From assembly GCA_030550155.1 (NCBI GenBank), contig JAUQPZ010000002.1:65568-103807 (forward strand): 38,240 bases of DNA. The letters run 5' to 3'. Position numbers and translations under genes: made by a program. The DNA is from Thermoproteota archaeon. GTDB lineage: Archaea; Thermoproteota; Nitrososphaeria_A; Caldarchaeales; Calditenuaceae. Position 1 is the first letter of the stretch. Each line of letters opens with the position of its first letter. The notes below the pieces were generated by a model, which worked only from the letters and a program-made list of their open reading frames with translations, searched no databases and was not told where the DNA came from. Positions 26,460 through 38,240 of the stretch are shown here, one piece after another.

Positions 26460-27593
26460 TCACTTGGTTAGTCTAACAAACTCTTCAACAGACTCCACAA
26501 TTCTCGGCGCCCGCGGTCCCCGAGTCCTGAGAATCAGCTCCTTAAGAGACTCTATCTCCTCCTTGCCTTCATGAACAGTAAGCTCCACCTCAATCAACCT
26601 ACTCTCCCGGGGTGAGAGGGTTTGAAGGGTCCCCCATCTCCGCTCAGCGTCTCTCCCTAGCACGAGAGCATTAGCCGGCTCGATTCCGACAACATACATC
26701 CCCTCACCAATCATCTTCCACTCTATCAGTCTGTTCAGGCTCGACTTCTTGAAGCGAAGTGAGACCGCTATCCCGCCACCCAGCACCTCATTCAGAAGGG
26801 CCGCGTAGGCATATCCGTCACGGTCTACGGCGAGGTCGTGAAAGTAGACTTTCTCCCTGAACATCCGTTGAGGCTCGTCAAAGCTATCATACTGCTCCGC
26901 TCCCTCGGCCGCGTCTGCGTCGCGCGGCACTACGAGGCGAGACGTTGTGAGAAGCTTAGATTCTCTGCTCAAGAGGGGGTATCCGAAGTTGAAGTGGTAG
27001 AGTATCATGAAGGGCTGGGCATACCAGCCGTTGTTCTTGAATACGTCGCTTATCATTAATTTTCGGTCGCCCAGCTTAGCCGTTATCCTTCTATGCATCG
27101 AGATATTCGGCTCAAAGACCTTGGCTTCCCTCACCTCACCCTCCACCTCCATCCAATACTCGTCCCCCTCCCATCTGCCCCCACAGAGTGTAAGCCTAGC
27201 CGGGATGTAGGAGACGCGGCCATGGAGCCCGAGATGCTCCCCCTCATCAACGGTCGGCCTCCCAAAATAAGTCAAGCCGCAGGTGGTCAGGGCTCCACCG
27301 AAAAACCCTCTCAGCCAACCTAAACTTTCAGGCTCGTAAAAGGCAGGCCCCACAATCCCTGTGGGGCTAATCCACGCCAAAGGAATGTTCCTGTATTCAA
27401 GGTTTGCGATGTCTAACGCCCTGTCGACGACTATCGTCGCGTTCAGGAGCCCCGTCCTAAGACTGACGCATCTGACACCACTTCCGGCTCCATCGGCGAG
27501 CTTGTAGAGAGTCAGCCCTCCGACTTGAGACACATCCCCGACGTACCTCTCAAAAGATTCTCTACTGAGTTTAACTCCAAAAAGGTTTACCAC
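26460..27593 (-). CDS. DUF4432 family aldose-epimerase-like protein
   Basis: This 377-residue protein has the galactose-mutarotase beta-sandwich pattern of DUF4432. Features are 'NATIVVDRALDIANLEYRNIPLAWIS', 'GWLRGFFGGALTTCGLTYFG', the His-rich 'EGEHLGLHGRVSYIPA', and a later 'YHFNFGYPLL'. Such proteins lie in carbohydrate-use operons and are presumed to bind or epimerise a sugar, but the substrate is unknown. The start is GTG 27593, with a TATA-like box about 27-30 bases upstream. It forms a minus-strand set with a class V aminotransferase and an NAD-dependent epimerase. Each seems to have its own promoter. Confidence 0.82.
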   Translation of the reverse strand: MVNLFGVKLSRESFERYVGDVSQVGGLTLYKLADGAGSGVRCVSLRTGLLNATIVVDRALDIANLEYRNIPLAWISPTGIVGPAFYEPESLGWLRGFFGGALTTCGLTYFGRPTVDEGEHLGLHGRVSYIPARLTLCGGRWEGDEYWMEVEGEVREAKVFEPNISMHRRITAKLGDRKLMISDVFKNNGWYAQPFMILYHFNFGYPLLSRESKLLTTSRLVVPRDADAAEGAEQYDSFDEPQRMFREKVYFHDLAVDRDGYAYAALLNEVLGGGIAVSLRFKKSSLNRLIEWKMIGEGMYVVGIEPANALVLGRDAERRWGTLQTLSPRESRLIEVELTVHEGKEEIESLKELILRTRGPRAPRIVESVEEFVRLTK

Positions 27594-27647
27594 GGATTAT
27601 AGTTTGAGGAGGACGGGGCTATATCTTTTTGCGCCTCTTTAAGGAAG

Positions 27648-28838
27648 TCAATAACCGAGCTCCTTATGAAATGCCTCGACAGCCTCTCCGACACTGCGTC
27701 CCTCGCCACTCAGATAGTTCAGAGCATCTACGAGAGCGGCGACTGTTGGTAACAAGTATCTCGGGCTTGCAGTCAACCCCATGTGTCCTATCCTTATCGC
27801 GTTGTTCTCAGTTGCACCTATTCCACGGCTGATCATTATCCTGTACTTGTTTAGCATCATATCCACCAACTGCCCAATTTTGTCTCTTAGCTTCTCCGGG
27901 ACCTCGATTGCCGTTATTGTTGGGGAGGCGTAGGACTCGTTCTTGCTTACAAGTCCAAGTCTCATGGCCTTGACTGCTGCTCTGAGGGCGGCAGCCATAC
28001 GTCTATGTCTCTCGTATCTTTTCTCCAGCCCCTCTTCAAGAGCGACCTCGACTCCTTTCTTCAAGGCTAGGTATGCATAGGTGTTGACGGTCGTGGGATA
28101 GGGATGGCCGGCGCTACTCCAGTTCTCTCTATACCACCTCCACACACGAAGGTTCGTAAACCATGACATTGGGCTAACCTGCCCCCTCTCAACCCTCTCC
28201 CAGACCTCTCTGCTAATGGATACTGGAAGAGCCCCAGGGATACCGCTCAGACACTTGTTTGGATAGCCTACACAGACATCTATCCCCCACCCGTCAACAT
28301 CTAAATCAGCTCCTCCGAAAGAAGAGACCGCGTCAACCACGGTGAATAAGCCCCTCTTCTTAGCAATTGCCAGATATTCATGGATGGGGTTAAGGACTCC
28401 GGCCGCAGACTCGTTCTGAACCACTATGAGGGCCCGCGCGTCAGGATTTCTGTCCAAGCACTCCTTGAGAGTTTCTGGTGAGACAACATAACCTGCGGGG
28501 GCGCTTAGAGTCAAGACCTCCGCTCCGCAGTAGCTGGCAATCTCCACGAACCTATCACCGAAGAAACCATTTGTCAGCGCAACTATCTTATCACCCCGGT
28601 TAGCCACATTAACGATCCCCAGCTCCAACCCTAGACACCCTGGGGCAGGCATTATGATCACCTCATTACGTGTTTTGAAGATCTTCTTCACGTTCTCCTC
28701 TATCTCCGTATAGATTTGGCGCCATTCAGGTCCATAATGCGGGTAGAACCTACTCGTCAATACATCTCTTATCCGTGGATGAAGCTCAGATGGGCCTGGA
28801 ATCATCAGTATGGGGTCTTCTCCCCAGTATCTGCTCAC
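27648..28838 (-). CDS. Class V PLP aminotransferase (alanine/serine-glyoxylate type)
   Basis: This 396-residue enzyme belongs to the class V aminotransferases that move an amino group from serine or alanine to glyoxylate or pyruvate. Visible are the N-terminal 'MIPGPSELHPRIRDVL' substrate loop, 'HYGPEWRQIY', 'VVDAVSSFGGADLDVDGWGID' carrying the PLP-pyridine Asp, and the PLP Schiff-base Lys in 'GYPNKCLSGIPG'. The C-terminal 'IRIGHMGLTASPRYLL' is typical. Substrate specificity (serine-glyoxylate, alanine-glyoxylate or serine-pyruvate) cannot be set by eye. The start is GTG 28838, downstream of a short AT-rich promoter region. Confidence 0.88.
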   Translation of the reverse strand: MSRYWGEDPILMIPGPSELHPRIRDVLTSRFYPHYGPEWRQIYTEIEENVKKIFKTRNEVIIMPAPGCLGLELGIVNVANRGDKIVALTNGFFGDRFVEIASYCGAEVLTLSAPAGYVVSPETLKECLDRNPDARALIVVQNESAAGVLNPIHEYLAIAKKRGLFTVVDAVSSFGGADLDVDGWGIDVCVGYPNKCLSGIPGALPVSISREVWERVERGQVSPMSWFTNLRVWRWYRENWSSAGHPYPTTVNTYAYLALKKGVEVALEEGLEKRYERHRRMAAALRAAVKAMRLGLVSKNESYASPTITAIEVPEKLRDKIGQLVDMMLNKYRIMISRGIGATENNAIRIGHMGLTASPRYLLPTVAALVDALNYLSGEGRSVGEAVEAFHKELGY

Positions 28839-28878
28839 GCTTAAAACTGTTAAATCCTTATGATAAAAATCTCACCCT

Positions 28879-29844
28879 TTAGGGCAAATCGCTGGTGTCA
28901 AGCTCTCCGCGGCTGTGCAGATGACGGAAATAGCTAGCCGTCTTCTCTATTCCCTCCCTCGCGCTTGTTTTGTTGAGGGGGCCGAGGTCCCGCTCCGTCT
29001 CTGAATCATCGAGAGCCGCTGGAATAGGGAGGGGCTTATCCTCATAAGATATATGCCCTTTAACGCCAGTTACGTCTTCGATAAGCTCAATAATCTGGGG
29101 AACACTCAAGACATCGCCTCTAACGTTGTACACTCTCGCACCATCCAAGTCCCTAAGGGCCGCTACTGCAAACAAATATGCGACGTCCTCGACGTATTGG
29201 AGATCTACGAGCCCTCCAAACCTTATCTTGAACTGCTTACCAACGACGGCGGCCTTTATAGCGCGGGCCACGTCCGATGTAACACCTACATCCCTCCCCA
29301 GGCCGTAAACCACCTGTGGCCGAAGCCCAACACTAGGTATTCTCGCCTCATGCCAGTATGCGTTTGCTGTCAGCTCATTGCAAACCTTGAAAGCCCCATA
29401 ATGAGTGGCGGGTCTGAGAACCACGTGGACAGGAACCGGCCCCTCGCCATATAACTCCGGAGGGCCAAAGACCGCGGCAGAGCTTGCATAGACTACTCGC
29501 CTGACAGATCCACCGCTATTCTTCGCCGCCTCGAAAACCCTCAAAGTGCCTATCACGTTAACCATGCCACCCCTCACCGGGTCAGCCCTGCACTGAGGTA
29601 TTTGGAACGCCGCTAGATGTATAATCGCCTCGACAGAATACTTCTTAACAATCCCTTCGATAAAACCCTCCTCAACGATATCACCCCTCACAAAGGGCAG
29701 TTCACCGACATCACCCAGCACTTGGCGAAGCCGGGTCAGATCCCCCGAGACATCCGTTAAAACCACCTCCTCCCCCATACTCAAGAGCTGCTTCACCGTC
29801 CAAGCCCCAATAAATCCACACGCGCCAGTAACCAGAACCCCCAT
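28879..29844 (-). CDS. NAD-dependent nucleotide-sugar epimerase/dehydratase (extended SDR)
   Basis: The protein starts 'MGVLVTGACGFIG' with the Rossmann GxxGxxG motif. It then shows 'IIHLAAFQIPQC', the catalytic Ser in 'YASSAAVFG' and the YxxxK pair in 'HYGAFK', the extended SDR active site. The C-terminal half holds a substrate domain ('VDLQYVEDVAYLFAVAAL', 'YNVRGDVLSVPQIIELI'). At 321 residues it suits UDP-glucose 4-epimerase-like enzymes and also uronate or aldose dehydrogenases of this fold. The substrate is open. ATG 29844 is preferred over the start at 29865 because it gives the standard N-terminus and fits a TATA box at 29875-29883. Confidence 0.85.
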   Translation of the reverse strand: MGVLVTGACGFIGAWTVKQLLSMGEEVVLTDVSGDLTRLRQVLGDVGELPFVRGDIVEEGFIEGIVKKYSVEAIIHLAAFQIPQCRADPVRGGMVNVIGTLRVFEAAKNSGGSVRRVVYASSAAVFGPPELYGEGPVPVHVVLRPATHYGAFKVCNELTANAYWHEARIPSVGLRPQVVYGLGRDVGVTSDVARAIKAAVVGKQFKIRFGGLVDLQYVEDVAYLFAVAALRDLDGARVYNVRGDVLSVPQIIELIEDVTGVKGHISYEDKPLPIPAALDDSETERDLGPLNKTSAREGIEKTASYFRHLHSRGELDTSDLP

Positions 29845-29874
29845 GCCTAGACCCAAGTAAACCACCCGCGAGAG

Positions 29875-30133: not shown

Positions 30134-31618
30134 ATGTGGGTTAATATGTTGAAGGTATTGATGGTATTGTTGAATAAAAAATTTAATAGAAGGGAAGCAA
30201 TCTCCACAGCCGCTAAAATAAGTGTCGCCACAGGCTTAGCGGCGGTGGCCGGCGGGGTCGTTGGGTACAGCGCAGGCTCTTTAACAGCGCCACGGGATAC
30301 AATTATAACCCGAACAGTAACTCAGACCGTTACCGGTGCTCCTGAGAAAGTTGAGCTACAGGTTTGGGATATAGAGACGGATCCAGGCCCCTATGATGCA
30401 ATGGAAAAAGCCATCGAGGTTTTCGAGACAGAATATCCAAACGTCACAGTGAAGAGGGAGGCTAAATCGCTGTCAGAGCAAACAACTGCCGTGATGGCTG
30501 CCCTCCAAGCAGGACGAGGTGGTGACGTAATAGTCGTCAACAATGGTGAGACTATGATGGGGCCGCTGGTGCGGGCCGGTCTCATAATACCTTTAGACTC
30601 GTATGCGGTAAAATATGGATGGTTCAAAAAAGCGTTCTCGCCCTATATATGGAAAAGAGCAATGTATTCACGGGATGGTTCTGTCTTCGGAGTCGGTAAT
30701 CTTTATGCCGTCTCATTTAGAAGCGAGATAGTAGGAGTATTTTATAATAAAAACATATTCAGAGACTTGGGCGCAGGTGTACCTCAAACTCTGCAGGAGC
30801 TTGAAGATGTCTTGGATAGGGCCAAAAGGGCCGGATACATACCGCTCGCGATAGGCGGCTTAACTGACTGGCCATTCTTCCATCTCTTCGGGGCGATACA
30901 GGCTTCCTTCCTCGCACACGAGTTTGGAAGCCCGCTCAAGGCTCAGGAATACATCGATGATATAGTGTTGTCGTGGAGGGAAGATAGAACTTGGGTAAAA
31001 GATGGCAATAAGAAGGCTATACAAAAGATACAGGACTGGATTAAGAAAGGTTACTTCCCAGAAGGGTTCACAGGGATGACGATAGAGGAAGCCTTGGCTT
31101 CTTTCAAAGCTGGGAAAGCCGCTGTCTTCTTACAGGGGAACTGGTATGCAGCCGAGATAGCTGAAGCGCTAGGCCCCAAGAACGTTGGATTCTTCCCTGT
31201 CCCTCCCATCGAAAAAGGAGAGGCTATGCCGCCACAAATCGGGGGCATGGGGACACCACACGGAATAAGTATATTCTCACCTCATCAAGACATTGCTGCG
31301 AAGTTCCTTGACCTCTACATGCTACACCCTGAAGTAATTCAGACATTGGTGGCAAAGGGCGTGTTGCCGGCAGTTCCTGTACCACTTGAAAGAGTCGAAA
31401 GGGATACACTTATGTACGATACTGCAGTAGTGTTTAACAAAACACTTGAACGAGGAACCATGTGGCACTATTTAGACTGGACCACACCTACGATGTGGGA
31501 CACAATGTCGGAAGCAGGGTTCTTGGTCTATTCCTTAGAGATCGAGCCAGACGAGTTCGTAAGGAGAGTAGAAGAAGACTACAGAGCTTGGCAGGCCAGA
31601 AAGCCGAAACCTGCATGA
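30134..31618 (+). CDS. Carbohydrate ABC transporter, extracellular substrate-binding protein
   Basis: This is a family 1 solute-binding protein (MalE/UgpB type), 494 residues from the first ATG. The N-terminus has 'NRREAIS' followed by an Ala/Gly hydrophobic stretch, consistent with a Tat-like export signal. No lipobox Cys follows. A Thr-rich linker ('TIITRTVTQTVTG') leads into the sugar-binding fold. Typical features are 'FETEYPNVTVKREAK', 'PLAIGGLTDWPFFHLFGA', 'SFKAGKAAVFLQGNW' and the late 'MGTPHGISIFSPHQDIAAKFLDLYM'. The substrate is unknown. Linkage to inositol-type catabolic genes suggests a cyclitol or sugar. The stop overlaps the next start as ATGA. Codon use (ATA, TTA, AAA) is more AT-rich than upstream genes. 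Confidence 0.86.
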   Translation: MWVNMLKVLMVLLNKKFNRREAISTAAKISVATGLAAVAGGVVGYSAGSLTAPRDTIITRTVTQTVTGAPEKVELQVWDIETDPGPYDAMEKAIEVFETEYPNVTVKREAKSLSEQTTAVMAALQAGRGGDVIVVNNGETMMGPLVRAGLIIPLDSYAVKYGWFKKAFSPYIWKRAMYSRDGSVFGVGNLYAVSFRSEIVGVFYNKNIFRDLGAGVPQTLQELEDVLDRAKRAGYIPLAIGGLTDWPFFHLFGAIQASFLAHEFGSPLKAQEYIDDIVLSWREDRTWVKDGNKKAIQKIQDWIKKGYFPEGFTGMTIEEALASFKAGKAAVFLQGNWYAAEIAEALGPKNVGFFPVPPIEKGEAMPPQIGGMGTPHGISIFSPHQDIAAKFLDLYMLHPEVIQTLVAKGVLPAVPVPLERVERDTLMYDTAVVFNKTLERGTMWHYLDWTTPTMWDTMSEAGFLVYSLEIEPDEFVRRVEEDYRAWQARKPKPA

Positions 31619-32505
31619 ATGTCATGAGCGGCCCAAAAAGCCCCTATAACTACAGGAAACAATTCAAAAACGTCATTGGCTATCTTTACTTAATTCCATT
31701 CGCTGTTTTCACTATCCCTTTTCTTTTCTACCCTTTTTCTCAGGCCTTCTACTACATATTTCTAGAATGGGACGGATTCGGTGAAAAAAAGTTCATAGGG
31801 ATTTACAACTTTATCAGAATGTTAGGAGACAGAAGATTCATTGAGGCTTTAGTGGCCAACTCCTTCTATATAATCTTCTTTTGGGCGCTACCCATAATTC
31901 TGGGGCTGCTCCTCACAGCGCTGGTAGGCAGGAGGAGTTTCCTAGGCCAAGGAATATTCAGAATAGCCATGCTTACTCCTCTGGCTATGACATCAGTCGC
32001 TATAGGCATAGTCTTTTACACAATTTTCTCCCCATCAGGTCTATTAAATGAGATAGCTCGGGTCCTAAACATACCGGTAAAGATTGCATGGCTAGGGTCT
32101 ACACCGACAGCACGACTCGCCGTAGGGCTGGTCGGTACATGGGCAATAATTGGGTTCGCCACGATATTGTTTATATCTGCATTACAAAAAATCCCAGAAT
32201 CCTTTTTAGAAATAGCGGAGCTGGAGGGGGCCACCGATTTTCAAAAATTAAGATATGTGATTATCCCCTATCTTAAACATACAATCATCTTTGTAAGTCT
32301 GTTTTCACTAATTGGTGCTCTCGGGACTACTGCCTATGGTATAGTGGCGTCACTTACGGGCGGGGCATACTACACGAGACCTCTTGCCCATTACGGGTAC
32401 GCGGTTGCATTTGTTGAATATGAAGTTGGATACGGAGCTGCAATAATCTTTATACCCGCTGTTGTTGGATTAATACTTTCGTACATTATTTACAGGGTGG
32501 AGTGA
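31615..32505 (+). CDS. Carbohydrate ABC transporter permease (MalF/UgpA type)
   Basis: This inner-membrane permease has about six helices in 296 residues. The conserved permease loop reads 'EIAELEGATDFQKLRYVIIPYL', the EAA motif that docks the ATPase. The N-terminal half includes the long periplasmic segment typical of MalF-like proteins. ATG 31615 overlaps the TGA of the binding-protein gene as ATGA, so the start is fixed by coupling; an in-frame ATG at 31624 is the alternative. Next comes the second permease, 2 bases after the stop. Confidence 0.9.
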   Translation: MNVMSGPKSPYNYRKQFKNVIGYLYLIPFAVFTIPFLFYPFSQAFYYIFLEWDGFGEKKFIGIYNFIRMLGDRRFIEALVANSFYIIFFWALPIILGLLLTALVGRRSFLGQGIFRIAMLTPLAMTSVAIGIVFYTIFSPSGLLNEIARVLNIPVKIAWLGSTPTARLAVGLVGTWAIIGFATILFISALQKIPESFLEIAELEGATDFQKLRYVIIPYLKHTIIFVSLFSLIGALGTTAYGIVASLTGGAYYTRPLAHYGYAVAFVEYEVGYGAAIIFIPAVVGLILSYIIYRVE

Positions 32506-32506
32506 G

Positions 32507-33328
32507 TTGAGAGTGAATCCATCCAAACTACTCTTACCTCTCCTAACCTTGGTGATTTCGCTTATCATGATGAGCCCTCTTATTTTTTCGGTTTTAGCTA
32601 GTTTTATGAATGAGCTTGAAATTTATAGTGGTCTTTTAAGAATACCTACTAGAATCTCCTTCGAAAACTATTACGACGTATTAGTGAAATACAAGTTCGC
32701 AAAACTTACGATCAATACAACATTAATTACCTCCATCGTGGTCGTAGCGGCTATCCCAGTTGCAATATTGGCTACCGCCTCTCTTACCTTAAAGAGAATA
32801 CGGTTTAAAAGGACAATACTAACTGTCTGCGTTATCGGCGCAACTGCTCCCGAGATCATGCTTATGATACCGATGTTCTCGTTGATGAGCGATCTTGGAT
32901 TAATTAACAATTTTTTGTCTGTCATTTTGCCTTACACCGCCATGACTATCTGCTTCGACATGCTCGTCCTATACTCCTATCAGCGTGGATTGCCCAGCGA
33001 ATTCATCGAAGCCGCTTATCTTGACGGTGCCTCAGACTGGTATCTGATCTGGAGAATTCTAACACCTTTATCCAAGCCCGCTATTATGTCTGCGGCAATA
33101 CTAACTACAGTATTTACTTGGAATAGTTTTATCTTGCCCCTAGTTCTCTTACCTGATCCTGATATGGCTACACTCCCTGTCGGTCTTCTGCGATTCTCCG
33201 GCCAATATCTCGTTAACGTGCCGCTTCTTCTGACGGGGAGCATAATAACCTCATTTCCCATGATAATCTTTTATCTAATATTCCAAGGATACGTTGTGAA
33301 GGGGGTAACTTTTGCGGTTCGCGAATAA
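32507..33328 (+). CDS. Carbohydrate ABC transporter permease (MalG/UgpE type)
   Basis: This is the second permease, 273 residues and about six helices. The EAA loop reads 'EFIEAAYLDGASDWYLIWRILTPLSKPAIM', the most conserved part of MalG-type subunits. It starts at TTG 32507, with GGTGGAG a few bases upstream inside the preceding stop region. GTG at 32513 is an alternative. No ATPase subunit follows. A GC-rich hairpin with a T-run begins about 100 bases downstream. The operon probably relies on a shared ATPase elsewhere. Confidence 0.9.
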   Translation: MRVNPSKLLLPLLTLVISLIMMSPLIFSVLASFMNELEIYSGLLRIPTRISFENYYDVLVKYKFAKLTINTTLITSIVVVAAIPVAILATASLTLKRIRFKRTILTVCVIGATAPEIMLMIPMFSLMSDLGLINNFLSVILPYTAMTICFDMLVLYSYQRGLPSEFIEAAYLDGASDWYLIWRILTPLSKPAIMSAAILTTVFTWNSFILPLVLLPDPDMATLPVGLLRFSGQYLVNVPLLLTGSIITSFPMIIFYLIFQGYVVKGVTFAVRE

Positions 33329-33847: not shown

Positions 33848-35014
33848 TTATAGTGTTGGCCCGCTCTTAAGTATCGCGAAGTCTTCGTGTCTCATTAGCT
33901 CGGCAGCGGTCTCTCTGCCACTTACTATCTCTACTAAAAGGTAAAATAGTTTCTCAGCCAGCTCGTCAAGAGGTATGTCGCCTCTAAGCGCGGGGCTAAG
34001 GTCTAGGTCTATGTTCTCGCGCATGTTTCTGTAGGTTTTACTGTTTGCCGTAACTTTAATCGATGGCGCGATTGGCGATCCTATTGGCTCGCCGGAGCCA
34101 GTTGTGAAGATTATTGAGTGGCATCCTGATGCTGCAAGGGCTGTTATGGCTGGGACATCGAAGCCTGGCCCATCGACGAAGTATACGCCGGGCTCGTTTT
34201 TGCTTATTCGCTCTCCGTAACTTAGTACGTCGATTATTTTGGATGAGCCTGTCTTTAATAATGCGCCTGCAGACTTCTCCTCAATGGTCGTTATTCCGCC
34301 CCTTATGTTCCCGTAGTTGGGCTGGGCGCCCAGCCAGTTGCGCGAGTAGCTTAGTATGCTTTGAATGTTTTTCCTGACGATATGTCTCAACTTCCTCGCT
34401 ATTCCTCGGCTTATGCACCTTCTATACAGGTGTCTCTCCATCCCTATAAGCTCGGTCGTCTCTGTAAAGACTACTCTCCCGCCCATGTTCACTATAGTAT
34501 CTGCCACAAGTCCAACGACAGCATTTGCGAAGACGCTAGTATAGTCTGATGCTCCACACTTAACTCCGACAGTAAGACCGCTGATTTTCTTGATATATCG
34601 ACTCGATATTTTGTCAGATTCTTTCCTCAACATATTTACGAGCTTCACGCCCTTACTGATAGTTGCTCTCTCACCCTCTTCTTGAATGTGAAGCCAATAA
34701 ACTGGCTTGAACCTCTCTAACTCGGCAACCATGTCTTTGGCATTGTATCTCTCGTCGCCGAGCCCTATTAAGAGAGCCCCATAAACATTAGCGTTGAGGA
34801 CCGAGTTAATTATTGTTCGCCTAGTTATCTCGCTGTCTTCGCCGATCTCTCCATCAGTTCCCTTATCATGAACTAATGCAGGGGACGCGGTTCTTTTCGC
34901 AATTTGCTTAACTGCATGATTGGCCGAGGCTCCTACAGAAGCTACCACAACCTTATTCCTTATACCAAACCTGAATGTTGCGTCTTTTCGTGGATAGACT
35001 CTTATACGCATCAT
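33848..35014 (-). CDS. uxaA: Altronate/galactarate dehydratase-type large subunit (UxaA C-terminal family)
   Basis: This 388-residue protein matches the GD_AH_C family of Fe-dependent sugar-acid dehydratases. Recognisable parts are 'TFRFGIRNKVVVASVGASANHAV', 'LLIGLGDERY', 'LTVGVKCGASDYTSVFANAVVG' with a key Cys, 'MGGRVVFTETTELIGMERHLYRR' and 'IIFTTGSGEPIGSPIAPSIKVT'. D-altronate dehydratase gives 2-keto-3-deoxy-D-gluconate. The ATG at 35014 overlaps the stop of the SAF gene as ATGA. The small N-terminal domain is a separate gene here, whereas it is fused in Escherichia coli UxaA. Sulfolactate sulfo-lyase SuyB shares this split layout and is the main alternative. The neighbouring dehydrogenase favours a sugar acid. 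Confidence 0.8.
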   Translation of the reverse strand: MMRIRVYPRKDATFRFGIRNKVVVASVGASANHAVKQIAKRTASPALVHDKGTDGEIGEDSEITRRTIINSVLNANVYGALLIGLGDERYNAKDMVAELERFKPVYWLHIQEEGERATISKGVKLVNMLRKESDKISSRYIKKISGLTVGVKCGASDYTSVFANAVVGLVADTIVNMGGRVVFTETTELIGMERHLYRRCISRGIARKLRHIVRKNIQSILSYSRNWLGAQPNYGNIRGGITTIEEKSAGALLKTGSSKIIDVLSYGERISKNEPGVYFVDGPGFDVPAITALAASGCHSIIFTTGSGEPIGSPIAPSIKVTANSKTYRNMRENIDLDLSPALRGDIPLDELAEKLFYLLVEIVSGRETAAELMRHEDFAILKSGPTL

Positions 35015-35346
35015 CCTGACCACTCGTATAGGCTCTCTACGTTATGGATATGCACGTGTTCGCCAGCCCTTATTCTCTTTTTAGCTACGCCAATTTTGAT
35101 CCCCAGCTTGATTATGCCTCCACCCTTTGGGATGTTCTTAATTGCTATTTTGTGGCCTTGATTAATTGTGTTCTTGGCCTCGACCAGGTGTCTCCCAACA
35201 AGTAGGGCCTCGCCGCGGTTTATGTCCTGAACAGCCACTCCAACATTGTCCCTGGGATGTAGCAGAATAAGCCTCTGAGACCGTATAACATTCAGCGACG
35301 TTTGTGTATTCGCTTTTCTGCCTTGGCCTTTGTGACGGCCCCTCAA
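35011..35346 (-). CDS. SAF-domain small subunit of altronate dehydratase-type enzyme
   Basis: This 111-residue protein carries the SAF fold of the UxaA N-terminal domain: 'LHPRDNVGVAVQDINRGEAL', 'KNTINQGHKIAIKNIPKGG', and the ending 'KIGVAKKRIRAGEHVHIHNV'. It pairs with the downstream large subunit. The first about 20 residues are basic and unlike the family, so the start is uncertain. TTG 35346 overlaps the stop of the dehydrogenase as TTGA, which argues for it. The gene lies between the dehydrogenase and large subunit with overlaps on both sides, so all three form one operon. Confidence 0.8.
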   Translation of the reverse strand: MRGRHKGQGRKANTQTSLNVIRSQRLILLHPRDNVGVAVQDINRGEALLVGRHLVEAKNTINQGHKIAIKNIPKGGGIIKLGIKIGVAKKRIRAGEHVHIHNVESLYEWSG

Positions 35347-36524
35347 GGCTTTATCGTTACCTTGATGTGCACTCTCTCTTTAAGGGCTTGGAATGCTTTG
35401 ATGGCTTCTTCAAGCCTAAATCGCGCAGTTATCATGGGCGTGGGATCGAGTCTGCCGTTTTCAATCATCCTAATCACCCTTGGGAAGACCGCGTTCCCAG
35501 CATGACCCTGCGAGCCGTATATCTGCGAGGCGCGGGTCTGGAAATACTCTAGCCAGACTGCCGCCTCCTCGTCAGCCCTGCCTATCCAGACAACAGACCC
35601 ACCGACAGCAAGCGACTGCTCCACCTCAGGAAGTATTCTGCTTGGCTTACCTGCAGCCTCTACGTGTAGGTCCACTCCCGCTCCATCTGTGACCTCCAAT
35701 ATCTTCTCATAAGGCCTAACCCCCTTGGATCCGAGTTCCACGGGGTCGAATATGTGTGTAGCACCTATCCGCTTAGCCGCCGCCCTTCTATCTTCAACGG
35801 GCTCAAAAACTATTATTTTGGCCGCTCCCGCGGCTTTAAGTAATGCGATAGCACCCAGCCCGATTGGGCCCGCCCCCCAGACTACTGCGTTGCAGCCGGG
35901 TCTGTAGTTGCCGACTCTCACGAAAATCGCATTATAATTTACGCAGAGGGGCTCGACTAGTGAGCCTGCCTCAAGGGCCTTTTCCTCAGTGCCATAAACG
36001 TCTAAAAAGCCATTTATCTTCCAGACAAACCTAGCATCTGCCACCATATACTCCTCCATGCCACCATTCACCGTGAAACCCATCTCCTCAAGGTTGTAAC
36101 ACTGGTTGAAATAGGAAGTCCTGCAGGCATCGCATCTCCCGCAATACCACATTTCCTCCACAACAACCAGGTCTCCTGGCCTTAGTCCCTCGACTCCTTG
36201 CCCCACACTATCCACGACTCCCGAAAACTCATGCCCTGGAACCACGGGGAGTCTGGTCAACCCCGGATAGAGCATGTAACCCTCTGTGTCTCTCTCTACC
36301 ATGTGCAGGTCTGAGCCGCAAATCCCAACAGCTCCTAACCTAACGAGGACCTGGCCTCGTCCTATGCGTGGGGTCTCAATCTCTTTTAGCTTTATTTCAG
36401 GAGTGCGCCAGACTCTGCTCCCATTAACAATTCGCCTAGTCTCAGCCTCTCTTCGAGAAAGAACATAACTAGGCCTAGGGTTGAAGTCAGCCTCCAAAAC
36501 CGCTGCAAGTTGACGTGTCATCAT
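35343..36524 (-). CDS. Zinc-dependent MDR dehydrogenase, scyllo-inosose dehydrogenase (IolM)-like
   Basis: This 393-residue medium-chain dehydrogenase has a catalytic zinc set Cys69 ('GICGSDLH'), His98-Glu99 ('GHEFSG') and Glu190. Four structural-zinc Cys are at 128, 131, 134 and 142. The NAD motif is 'GAGPIGLGAI' at about 216. It has an unusual long N-terminal lead and the block 'EGYMLYPGLTRLPVVPGHEF'. That block and the 'WRTPEIKLKEIETPRI' start recall the scyllo-inosose 3-dehydrogenase of Thermotoga inositol catabolism, rather than general alcohol or threonine dehydrogenases (from memory, unverified). It is the first gene of a minus-strand operon and divergent from the creatininase-family gene. 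ATG codons at 36524 and 36521 are both possible, with a TATA-like box about 22 bases upstream. Confidence 0.8.
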   Translation of the reverse strand: MMTRQLAAVLEADFNPRPSYVLSRREAETRRIVNGSRVWRTPEIKLKEIETPRIGRGQVLVRLGAVGICGSDLHMVERDTEGYMLYPGLTRLPVVPGHEFSGVVDSVGQGVEGLRPGDLVVVEEMWYCGRCDACRTSYFNQCYNLEEMGFTVNGGMEEYMVADARFVWKINGFLDVYGTEEKALEAGSLVEPLCVNYNAIFVRVGNYRPGCNAVVWGAGPIGLGAIALLKAAGAAKIIVFEPVEDRRAAAKRIGATHIFDPVELGSKGVRPYEKILEVTDGAGVDLHVEAAGKPSRILPEVEQSLAVGGSVVWIGRADEEAAVWLEYFQTRASQIYGSQGHAGNAVFPRVIRMIENGRLDPTPMITARFRLEEAIKAFQALKERVHIKVTIKP

Positions 36525-36541
36525 TTAGGCATCTACACAAG

Positions 36542-36551
36542 CATATTTATC
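36542..36551 (-). promoter_or_regulatory. TATA-like box for the dehydrogenase-dehydratase operon
   Basis: 'catatttatc' (minus strand 'gataaatatg') lies about 20-27 bases upstream of the ATG at 36524. It is in the 113-base divergent gap shared with the creatininase-family gene. Confidence 0.45.
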
Positions 36552-36601
36552 TTTTTTAGTAGAATTTAAGCGATATCGGGATACTATCGTCGTAGATCAA
36601 C

Positions 36602-36613
36602 AGTAAATTTTTA
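36602..36613 (+). promoter_or_regulatory. TATA-like box for the creatininase-family gene
   Basis: 'agtaaattttta' lies about 28-34 bases upstream of the GTG at 36638. Confidence 0.4.
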
Positions 36614-36637
36614 GCCAAGCGTAATGTATGCAAACAC

Positions 36638-37552
36638 GTGAATCAAGATTTTAAGGCTAGGTTCGGCATAGTCTCCCTCAATAAAAATGGGAAGAAGATG
36701 TATATCGACCAGATGAGTACGTCTGAACTTCGGGAGAGATTACAGGAGAGCGATATTATTTTTCTTCCATGTGGTGCCGTAGAGAACCACGGACCTCAGG
36801 CACCTATAGGCGAGGACGTCTATATTGGCACATACATAGCTGAGAGAGTGGCACATGATACAGGAGTCTCTATAGCCCCACCGATCTTTTATGGCAGCCA
36901 CCCTTCACACCATCATGGAATGTTCGGCACCATACCTGTGAAGAAGCCCGTATACATTGGATACGTGACCTCGGTGGTCAAGTGGCTAAGCAATACAGGG
37001 TTCAAGAAAATAATCATATTTAACTCCCATGGGCAGGAGTATGTCCTACCAATAGTGAAGGATGATGCAATAATAGAGGAGGGTGTCCACGCGCTTATCC
37101 TAGTTACGAGCTGGTGGGCCTGGGTGCGGGACATACTGAAGGTGGGGACCGAGCTGGCGCCTGGACACAGGATAGAGACGCCCTTCATCCATGCAGATGA
37201 GGTCGAGACATCAGTTACATGGTATATTGTGCCACACCTCGTTTATCCAGAGAAGTTTGAGGAGGCGAAGGCGGAGAGGATGACCGCAGTTATACCTGAA
37301 AAATGGGCTGACAAAGCAGGCAACGTCTATAGTAGGCCGTTCGGATGGTATGACATCTCACAGTTCATGGAGCTTGAGTATTTTCCGAAGGGCGCCGTCG
37401 GAGACCCCACCAAAGCCACAAGTAAGAAGGGTGAAATAATAGTGGAGACGGCGGTACAGCGCATCAAGGAGTTCGTAGAGTGGCTTAAACAGAACTATCC
37501 TCCAAACAAGGTTCCCGTTGTATGGCCCTCAGAAGGCATGTTCAGGTTTTGA
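36638..37552 (+). CDS. Creatininase-superfamily hydrolase, IolN-like (3-dehydro-scyllo-inosose hydrolase candidate)
   Basis: This 304-residue protein has the creatininase metal site: 'GAVENHGPQAPIGEDVYIG' gives Glu49, His51 and Asp60, 'FNSHGQE' gives His131, and 'HADEVETS' gives Glu190. The family includes creatinine and formamide-type amidohydrolases. One member, IolN of Thermotoga, hydrolyses a diketo-inositol ring. Linkage to an IolM-like dehydrogenase and an IolG-like oxidoreductase favours that role over creatinine. The start is GTG 36638 because nearby ATG codons are out of frame. An internal ATG at 36698 ('MYIDQMST') is a possible alternative. Confidence 0.78.
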   Translation: MNQDFKARFGIVSLNKNGKKMYIDQMSTSELRERLQESDIIFLPCGAVENHGPQAPIGEDVYIGTYIAERVAHDTGVSIAPPIFYGSHPSHHHGMFGTIPVKKPVYIGYVTSVVKWLSNTGFKKIIIFNSHGQEYVLPIVKDDAIIEEGVHALILVTSWWAWVRDILKVGTELAPGHRIETPFIHADEVETSVTWYIVPHLVYPEKFEEAKAERMTAVIPEKWADKAGNVYSRPFGWYDISQFMELEYFPKGAVGDPTKATSKKGEIIVETAVQRIKEFVEWLKQNYPPNKVPVVWPSEGMFRF

Positions 37553-37677
37553 AAACTCTAAACGGTCTCCATAAAATCTGAAGTATAAAGATTAACCAAC
37601 TTTCTATAGTCATGTGCTCCGAAAAACTTGTATTCTTTCAACACGCGCCAGCGTCGCAGAAAGCTTAGGAGCCCAAC

Positions 37678-37722
37678 GGTCTAGCAGACCATGCTAAATC
37701 CTAATTCAGAGAAGACCTCTGA
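37678..37722 (+). repeat. Two small inverted repeats between the iolN-like and iolG-like genes
   Basis: 'ggtct-agc-agacc' (37678-37690) and 'tcagag-aagac-ctctga' (37706-37722) lie side by side in the 240-base gap, about 40-80 bases upstream of the TATA box. They could be operator half-sites or weak terminators. I see no gene in this gap. Confidence 0.3.
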
Positions 37723-37760
37723 GATCCTCCTTAAGCTCAACCTTTTTGGTTGTGTGGAGA

Positions 37761-37768
37761 TTTATATG
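37761..37768 (+). promoter_or_regulatory. TATA box for the iolG-like gene
   Basis: 'tttatatg' lies about 28 bases upstream of the ATG at 37793, supporting a leaderless start there rather than at the in-frame ATG at 37691. Confidence 0.45.
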
Positions 37769-37792
37769 TGGATGATAATAGCTGGGAATACG

Positions 37793-38240
37793 ATGGAGAG
37801 AATTAGGGTTGGGGTAATCGGTGCAGGTAGAATGGGCACTACTCACGCCAAAAATCTCTTAGCGCATGTGGGTGATGTCGAGTTTTCATTTGTGGTTGAT
37901 ACTGACAGGGAGGCTGCTGAGAGGCTCGCGAAAACGGTGAATGCTCGCCAACTTTTTGGCTCTCTGGAGGACGTTGACTTAGGTATGATCGACGCAGCAA
38001 TTGTCTCTGTGCCAAACATTTACCACTACCCAATCGTAACCCCCCTTGTTTCACAGGGAGTACATGTGCTGTGTGAGAAGCCGCTTGGGTTAAGGGCCTC
38101 TGATGCATACGAGTTAATGAGAATCGCTGAGAAAAGTGGGAGTATTCTTCAAGTGGCCTACAATAGACGCTACGATCCCGCGTATCAGAGGTGTAAGAGA
38201 CTTGTGGAGGAGGGGAACATGGGTAAGATCTTGCATATTA
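37793..38240 (+). CDS. Gfo/Idh/MocA oxidoreductase, myo-inositol 2-dehydrogenase (IolG)-like, truncated by window end
   Basis: Only the first 149 residues are present, and the frame is still open at the last base. The N-terminus is 'RVGVIGAGRMGTTHAKNL', the NAD(P)-binding motif. It is followed by 'SVPNIYHYP' and the family catalytic 'CEKPLG' (Glu95, Lys96, Pro97), then 'QVAYNRRYDPAYQ'. That profile fits the inositol dehydrogenase branch, but many sugar dehydrogenases share it. Context with IolM-like and IolN-like genes makes inositol 2-dehydrogenase the best guess. ATG 37793 is chosen by TATA spacing. In-frame ATGs at 37766 and 37691 would add 9 or 34 non-conserved residues. Confidence 0.8.
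   Translation, partial: MERIRVGVIGAGRMGTTHAKNLLAHVGDVEFSFVVDTDREAAERLAKTVNARQLFGSLEDVDLGMIDAAIVSVPNIYHYPIVTPLVSQGVHVLCEKPLGLRASDAYELMRIAEKSGSILQVAYNRRYDPAYQRCKRLVEEGNMGKILHI

Follow-up and report, generated by a model that had tools for sequence, protein, structure and literature searches.

A candidate ring-opening core of Thermotoga-type inositol catabolism in a Calditenuaceae archaeon, with a predicted UxaA-type tail

Many archaeal lipids carry inositol as a head group, and hyperthermophiles commonly contain it in the solute di-myo-inositol phosphate. In Thermotoga maritima its breakdown is said to run through IolG, IolM, IolN and IolO, encoded by TM0412-TM0416 (work of Rodionova et al. 2013, to the extent that NCBIfam models and citing papers relay it). 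The lgu pathway of Luteolibacter LG18, which runs from L-glucose/L-galactose, passes through the same 5-keto-L-gluconate, tagaturonate, altronate and 2-keto-3-deoxygluconate (KDG) and has its altronate dehydratase beside dehydrogenases, but it is without an IolM or IolN step and the dehydratase is not tied to an inositol gene (PMC12632266). Bacterial hexuronate catabolism (UxaA, UxaE) likewise employs a UxaA-family dehydratase giving KDG. Here we analyzed the last 38240 bases (the window) of a 103807-base contig in the draft genome (1.44 Mb, 90% complete) of a hot-spring archaeon of the Calditenuaceae, a family of the archaeal order Caldarchaeales. The genes at its end, which is exactly the contig end, on balance probably encode the ring-opening core of Thermotoga-type inositol catabolism with a tail via D-altronate, a UxaA-type enzyme and KDG, and would thus extend a known pathway, with its tail in a variant form, to a new domain.

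The locus resembles the T. maritima system in its IolM and IolN, both placed in the respective clades, and in its IolG-like neighbour, and other members of the phylum have IolO and UxaE as well. In contrast to T. maritima, the host is an archaeon without recognisable IolO and UxaE, IolM and IolN are divergent and a UxaA-type dehydratase is located in the IolM operon. The splitting of this dehydratase into two proteins and its tie to IolM, with no UxaC/UxaB-type neighbours seen, also separate it from bacterial hexuronate catabolism. All genes that an earlier note on this DNA had named are present and their families match (Table 1). The archaeal host is supported as well: archaeal housekeeping genes (read from translations) share the contig, which speaks against bacterial contamination.

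The dehydrogenase scores above the equivalog cut-off of 450 bits of the curated NCBIfam model NF041097 and clusters along with T. maritima IolM (3ip1) in a 39-row clade (support 100/100) against two paralogues, a small outgroup of few types. It is 43.5% identical to 3ip1 and 51-55% identical to IolN-linked archaeal IolMs, and the catalytic-zinc residues C69, H98 and E99, the structural-zinc residues C128, C131, C134 and C142 as well as E191 are invariant among the 36-37 aligned IolMs. We infer that it is an NAD-dependent scyllo-inosose oxidiser. A genome-wide scan with IolM led to a single locus. Haloarchaeal and Streptomyces genes labelled iolM are also found inside the 39-row clade. The haloarchaeal plasmid genes, labelled by NCBI, encode an archaeal dehydrogenase ~41% identical to the window IolM but have other neighbours and form a separate long branch; they were not accepted as earlier archaeal examples, as IolN is not nearby in the two records examined. 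Thus, annotation-level hints of an archaeal iolM exist, and in agreement with the earlier note no description of Thermotoga-type inositol breakdown in archaea was found in the literature searched, most subscription journals lying outside it.

For the creatininase-family hydrolase we reconstructed a tree with 16 further archaeal creatininase-family proteins plus creatininase 1q3k as the root; canonical IolN is represented in it by archaeal members scoring 300-560 bits and not by the T. maritima protein. The window protein is located inside a 36-row IolN clade (support 100/97) together with high-scoring IolN proteins, while other creatininase-family proteins from the same genomes are left out of it. 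Moreover, it keeps E49, H51, D60, H131 and the HADE motif (185-188) common to canonical IolN. The phylogeny that the earlier note had proposed as a check therefore leaves its IolM-like and IolN-like assignments intact, since neither protein groups outside the two clades. The Gfo/Idh/MocA dehydrogenase named in the earlier note is also present and IolG-like, but has to be corrected to a gene cut by the contig end. The IolG model TIGR04380 fits this fragment best, over 145 residues and with a cut-off (355 bits) that is for the full-length protein; the best match of the fragment, with 41%, is an IolG-like gene in the near-complete iol cluster of genome G235, and ATG 37793 is a likelier start than 37691.

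The ring-opening part of the earlier idea is well supported by these sequence comparisons and reaches far beyond the window. Among 398 genomes of the same phylum, 36 (~9%) possess IolM and 39 show IolN-family matches, with both in 34, IolM only in 2 and IolN only in 5; none of the five IolN-only proteins belongs to the IolN clade. The significance of this co-occurrence (Fisher p = 1.8e-41) overstates the independence of related genomes, but the link is shown directly by gene adjacency, as IolM and IolN are adjacent in most genomes holding both. Several relatives carry nearly full clusters: those of G235, G348, G380 and G342 add IolO-like, IolG-like and UxaE genes, and the first three of them hold sugar ABC transporter genes too. 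The Thermotoga-type bacterial route therefore appears to be established in archaea, and a module found in ~9% of the sampled genomes would offer a concrete, testable route of archaeal inositol breakdown. Glycerophosphodiester phosphodiesterase (GDPD) genes inside the iol clusters of G235, G008, G040 and G261 (L106:2143-2859, L074, L114 and L102) fit an inositol-phospholipid head-group substrate, and in these clusters glycerophosphoinositol may be imported. Four genomes share in their iol clusters a ~710-residue protein with only a weak transaldolase-family match (among others at L106:12313-14442 and L081:11802-13970), and a TIM-barrel protein, a glyoxylate-reductase-like protein and a cyclophilin-like protein are also recurrent there.

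Among named relatives the nearest is the Candidatus Calditenuaceae metagenome-assembled genome SKYB103 (JANXDI010000021.1, locus L038), where IolM and IolN are divergent neighbours as in the window. The block of IolN, IolM and the small and large UxaA-type parts is kept in this second species with identities of 90% (IolN), 85% (IolM), 76% (large part) and 61% (small part), while the flanks differ, showing that the arrangement is not due to chance. On the minus strand, the small part shares 4 bases with IolM and 13 with the large part, in the manner of a translationally coupled operon, and the divergent intergenic region presumably serves as a shared promoter region of IolM and IolN. The earlier note was thus right in placing UxaA in the IolM operon, yet this is a special case: the coupling was found in only two of the 36 IolM genomes, the window genome and SKYB103, and most of the others carry UxaE (27 of 36, against none of 15 IolM-negative genomes, a narrow control as all are closely related to the window genome). 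UxaE (PF16257) has no match in the window genome and is also missing from SKYB103, and the distribution of UxaA across the IolM genomes is weakly complementary to that of UxaE (p = 0.04). Limited to these two genomes, the coupling seems to stand in for the UxaE branch in this lineage, and the two kinds of tail point to swapping of the lower pathway between lineages. Canonical UxaE (542-567 bits) goes along with canonical IolN in G235, G261 and G343, and diverged UxaE (73-107 bits) is found in most others.

In the proposed model, IolG would oxidise myo-inositol to scyllo-inosose, IolM would oxidise this further to a diketo-inositol, and hydrolysis of a carbon-carbon bond by IolN would open the ring to the acid 5-keto-L-gluconate. 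Epimerisation and reduction to D-altronate would be carried out by enzymes not among the identified genes, before the UxaA-type enzyme of the operon forms KDG, to be consumed by a kinase/aldolase pair encoded elsewhere in the genome. All reactions and their directions are predicted from sequence, and so is the altronate step. The UxaA-type pair carries SAF plus GD_AH domains like UxaA altronate dehydratase and is a candidate for acting on altronate; within a family spanning several specificities, the pair exceeds the cut-off of no subfamily model, and the sole solved-structure match of the large part is the galactarate dehydratase 6u7l. For the last step, the search for a KDG kinase and aldolase suggested by the earlier note yielded an adjacent candidate pair on contig C37, where a KDG-kinase-like gene overlaps a KDG-aldolase-family gene, although both score below their cut-offs (366 versus 400 bits and 140 versus 390 bits). 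The best match of the kinase is the model for a bifunctional kinase of KDG and 2-keto-3-deoxygalactonate (KDGal).

Several findings weigh against this model. The window genome has no credible IolO gene (best match 131 bits, cut-off 300) and no match to the mannitol-dehydrogenase-type tagaturonate reductase (PF01232), so that the complete route that the earlier note had in mind was not recovered in this genome; UxaE is missing too. Four members of the genus that lack IolM have orthologues 77-79% identical to the best IolO-like gene, on contig C37, whose best structural relatives are 3kws and 6wn6, not IolO (2zvr); because IolM-negative relatives share this gene, it was set aside as probably another enzyme. 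In addition, the hydrolase falls ~8 bits short of the NF041098 cut-off of 245 bits, which the scores within the IolN clade straddle, and in SKYB103 the genes beside IolN encode Gfo/Idh proteins with a weak likeness to IolG (79.6 and 116.9 bits). Both genomes are drafts, 90-92% complete, so that absences are soft. The IolO-like TIM barrel of C37, which is related to the 3-keto-glucoside epimerase 6wn6, forms a pair with a Gfo/Idh gene (L093:7866-9646); every genome sampled from the genus keeps this barrel at 77-82%. A second IolO-like match in SKYB103, located beside an aldolase-like gene, a PfkB kinase and ABC genes, was rejected, as by eye it looks like a D-tagatose/D-psicose 3-epimerase.

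With IolO and UxaE not found and UxaA linked to the operon, the same ring opening might also be followed by a tail in which 5-keto-L-gluconate is reduced straight to D-idonate and this is dehydrated by the UxaA-type enzyme to KDGal, which an archaeal KDG/KDGal kinase and aldolase, promiscuous Entner-Doudoroff enzymes, would accept. Neither IolO nor UxaE would then be needed. By Fischer projection, worked by hand, D-idonate can arise when 5-keto-L-gluconate is reduced, and it has the same C2/C3 configuration as D-altronate; the organism's own kinase best fits the bifunctional model and the same intermediates occur, with other enzymes, in the L-gluconate route of Paracoccus laeviglucosivorans 43P (PMC12632266). 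However, the characterised altronate dehydratase LguB made no product from D-idonate (PMC12632266), no reductase was identified in the window genome and IolO may be divergent or unassembled. We consider a D-idonate tail unlikely and keep the altronate route as the more likely one, because the tested altronate dehydratase did not use D-idonate.

It is also rather improbable that in Calditenuaceae the substrate of the IolM and IolN homologues has shifted to a related compound, such as a different cyclitol or a cyclic ketone that derives from a sugar and is freed by the glycosidases near the SKYB103 block. The two Calditenuaceae IolMs do share a long branch (~1 change per column), IolN is under its curated cut-off and the SKYB103 neighbours include GH130, a GH42-like protein and oligopeptide-type ABC genes besides the Gfo/Idh proteins unlike IolG, but these glycosidases are not conserved with the four-gene block, the metal and motif residues are kept in both IolM and IolN and the Gfo/Idh protein of the window itself is IolG-like. 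Another explanation would be a chance grouping of an unrelated dehydrogenase and hydrolase, with the UxaA-type genes belonging to a uronate or galactarate route of their own. Proteins of the Gfo/Idh and creatininase families are indeed common and occur on other contigs of the window genome as well, but the overlapping reading frames, the phylum-wide linkage of IolM and IolN and a block kept in two species between different flanks make this highly improbable.

Table 1: Features of the candidate inositol locus, in window positions.
Feature	Position	Strand	Evidence
UxaA-type large part, GD_AH_second + GD_AH_C	33848..35023	-	PF20629 257 bits, PF04295 77 bits
UxaA-type small part, SAF domain	35011..35346	-	PF08666 37.7 bits
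IolM-like zinc dehydrogenase (scyllo-inosose 3-dehydrogenase-like)	35343..36524	-	NF041097 496 bits
Divergent intergenic region, 113 bases, with A/T-rich stretch	36525..36637	.	read from sequence
IolN-like creatininase-superfamily hydrolase (3-dehydro-scyllo-inosose hydrolase-like)	36638..37552	+	NF041098 236.6 bits
IolG-like Gfo/Idh/MocA dehydrogenase, N-terminal half only	37691..38240 (contig end)	+	TIGR04380 109 bits

An inositol transporter encoded by the maltose-type ABC genes at 30134-33328 was considered and rejected, as these genes are only ~24-29% identical to cluster-linked transporters and missing at the SKYB103 locus. They have no adjacent ATPase gene and adjoin a row of DUF4432, class V aminotransferase and SDR epimerase-like genes (26460-29865). 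Elsewhere in the window genome, contig C11 (L169:3964-8554) encodes a glycerophosphodiesterase beside a Gfo/Idh protein, two sugar-isomerase-like TIM barrels and an aldo/keto reductase, which is possibly a second sugar or polyol cluster.

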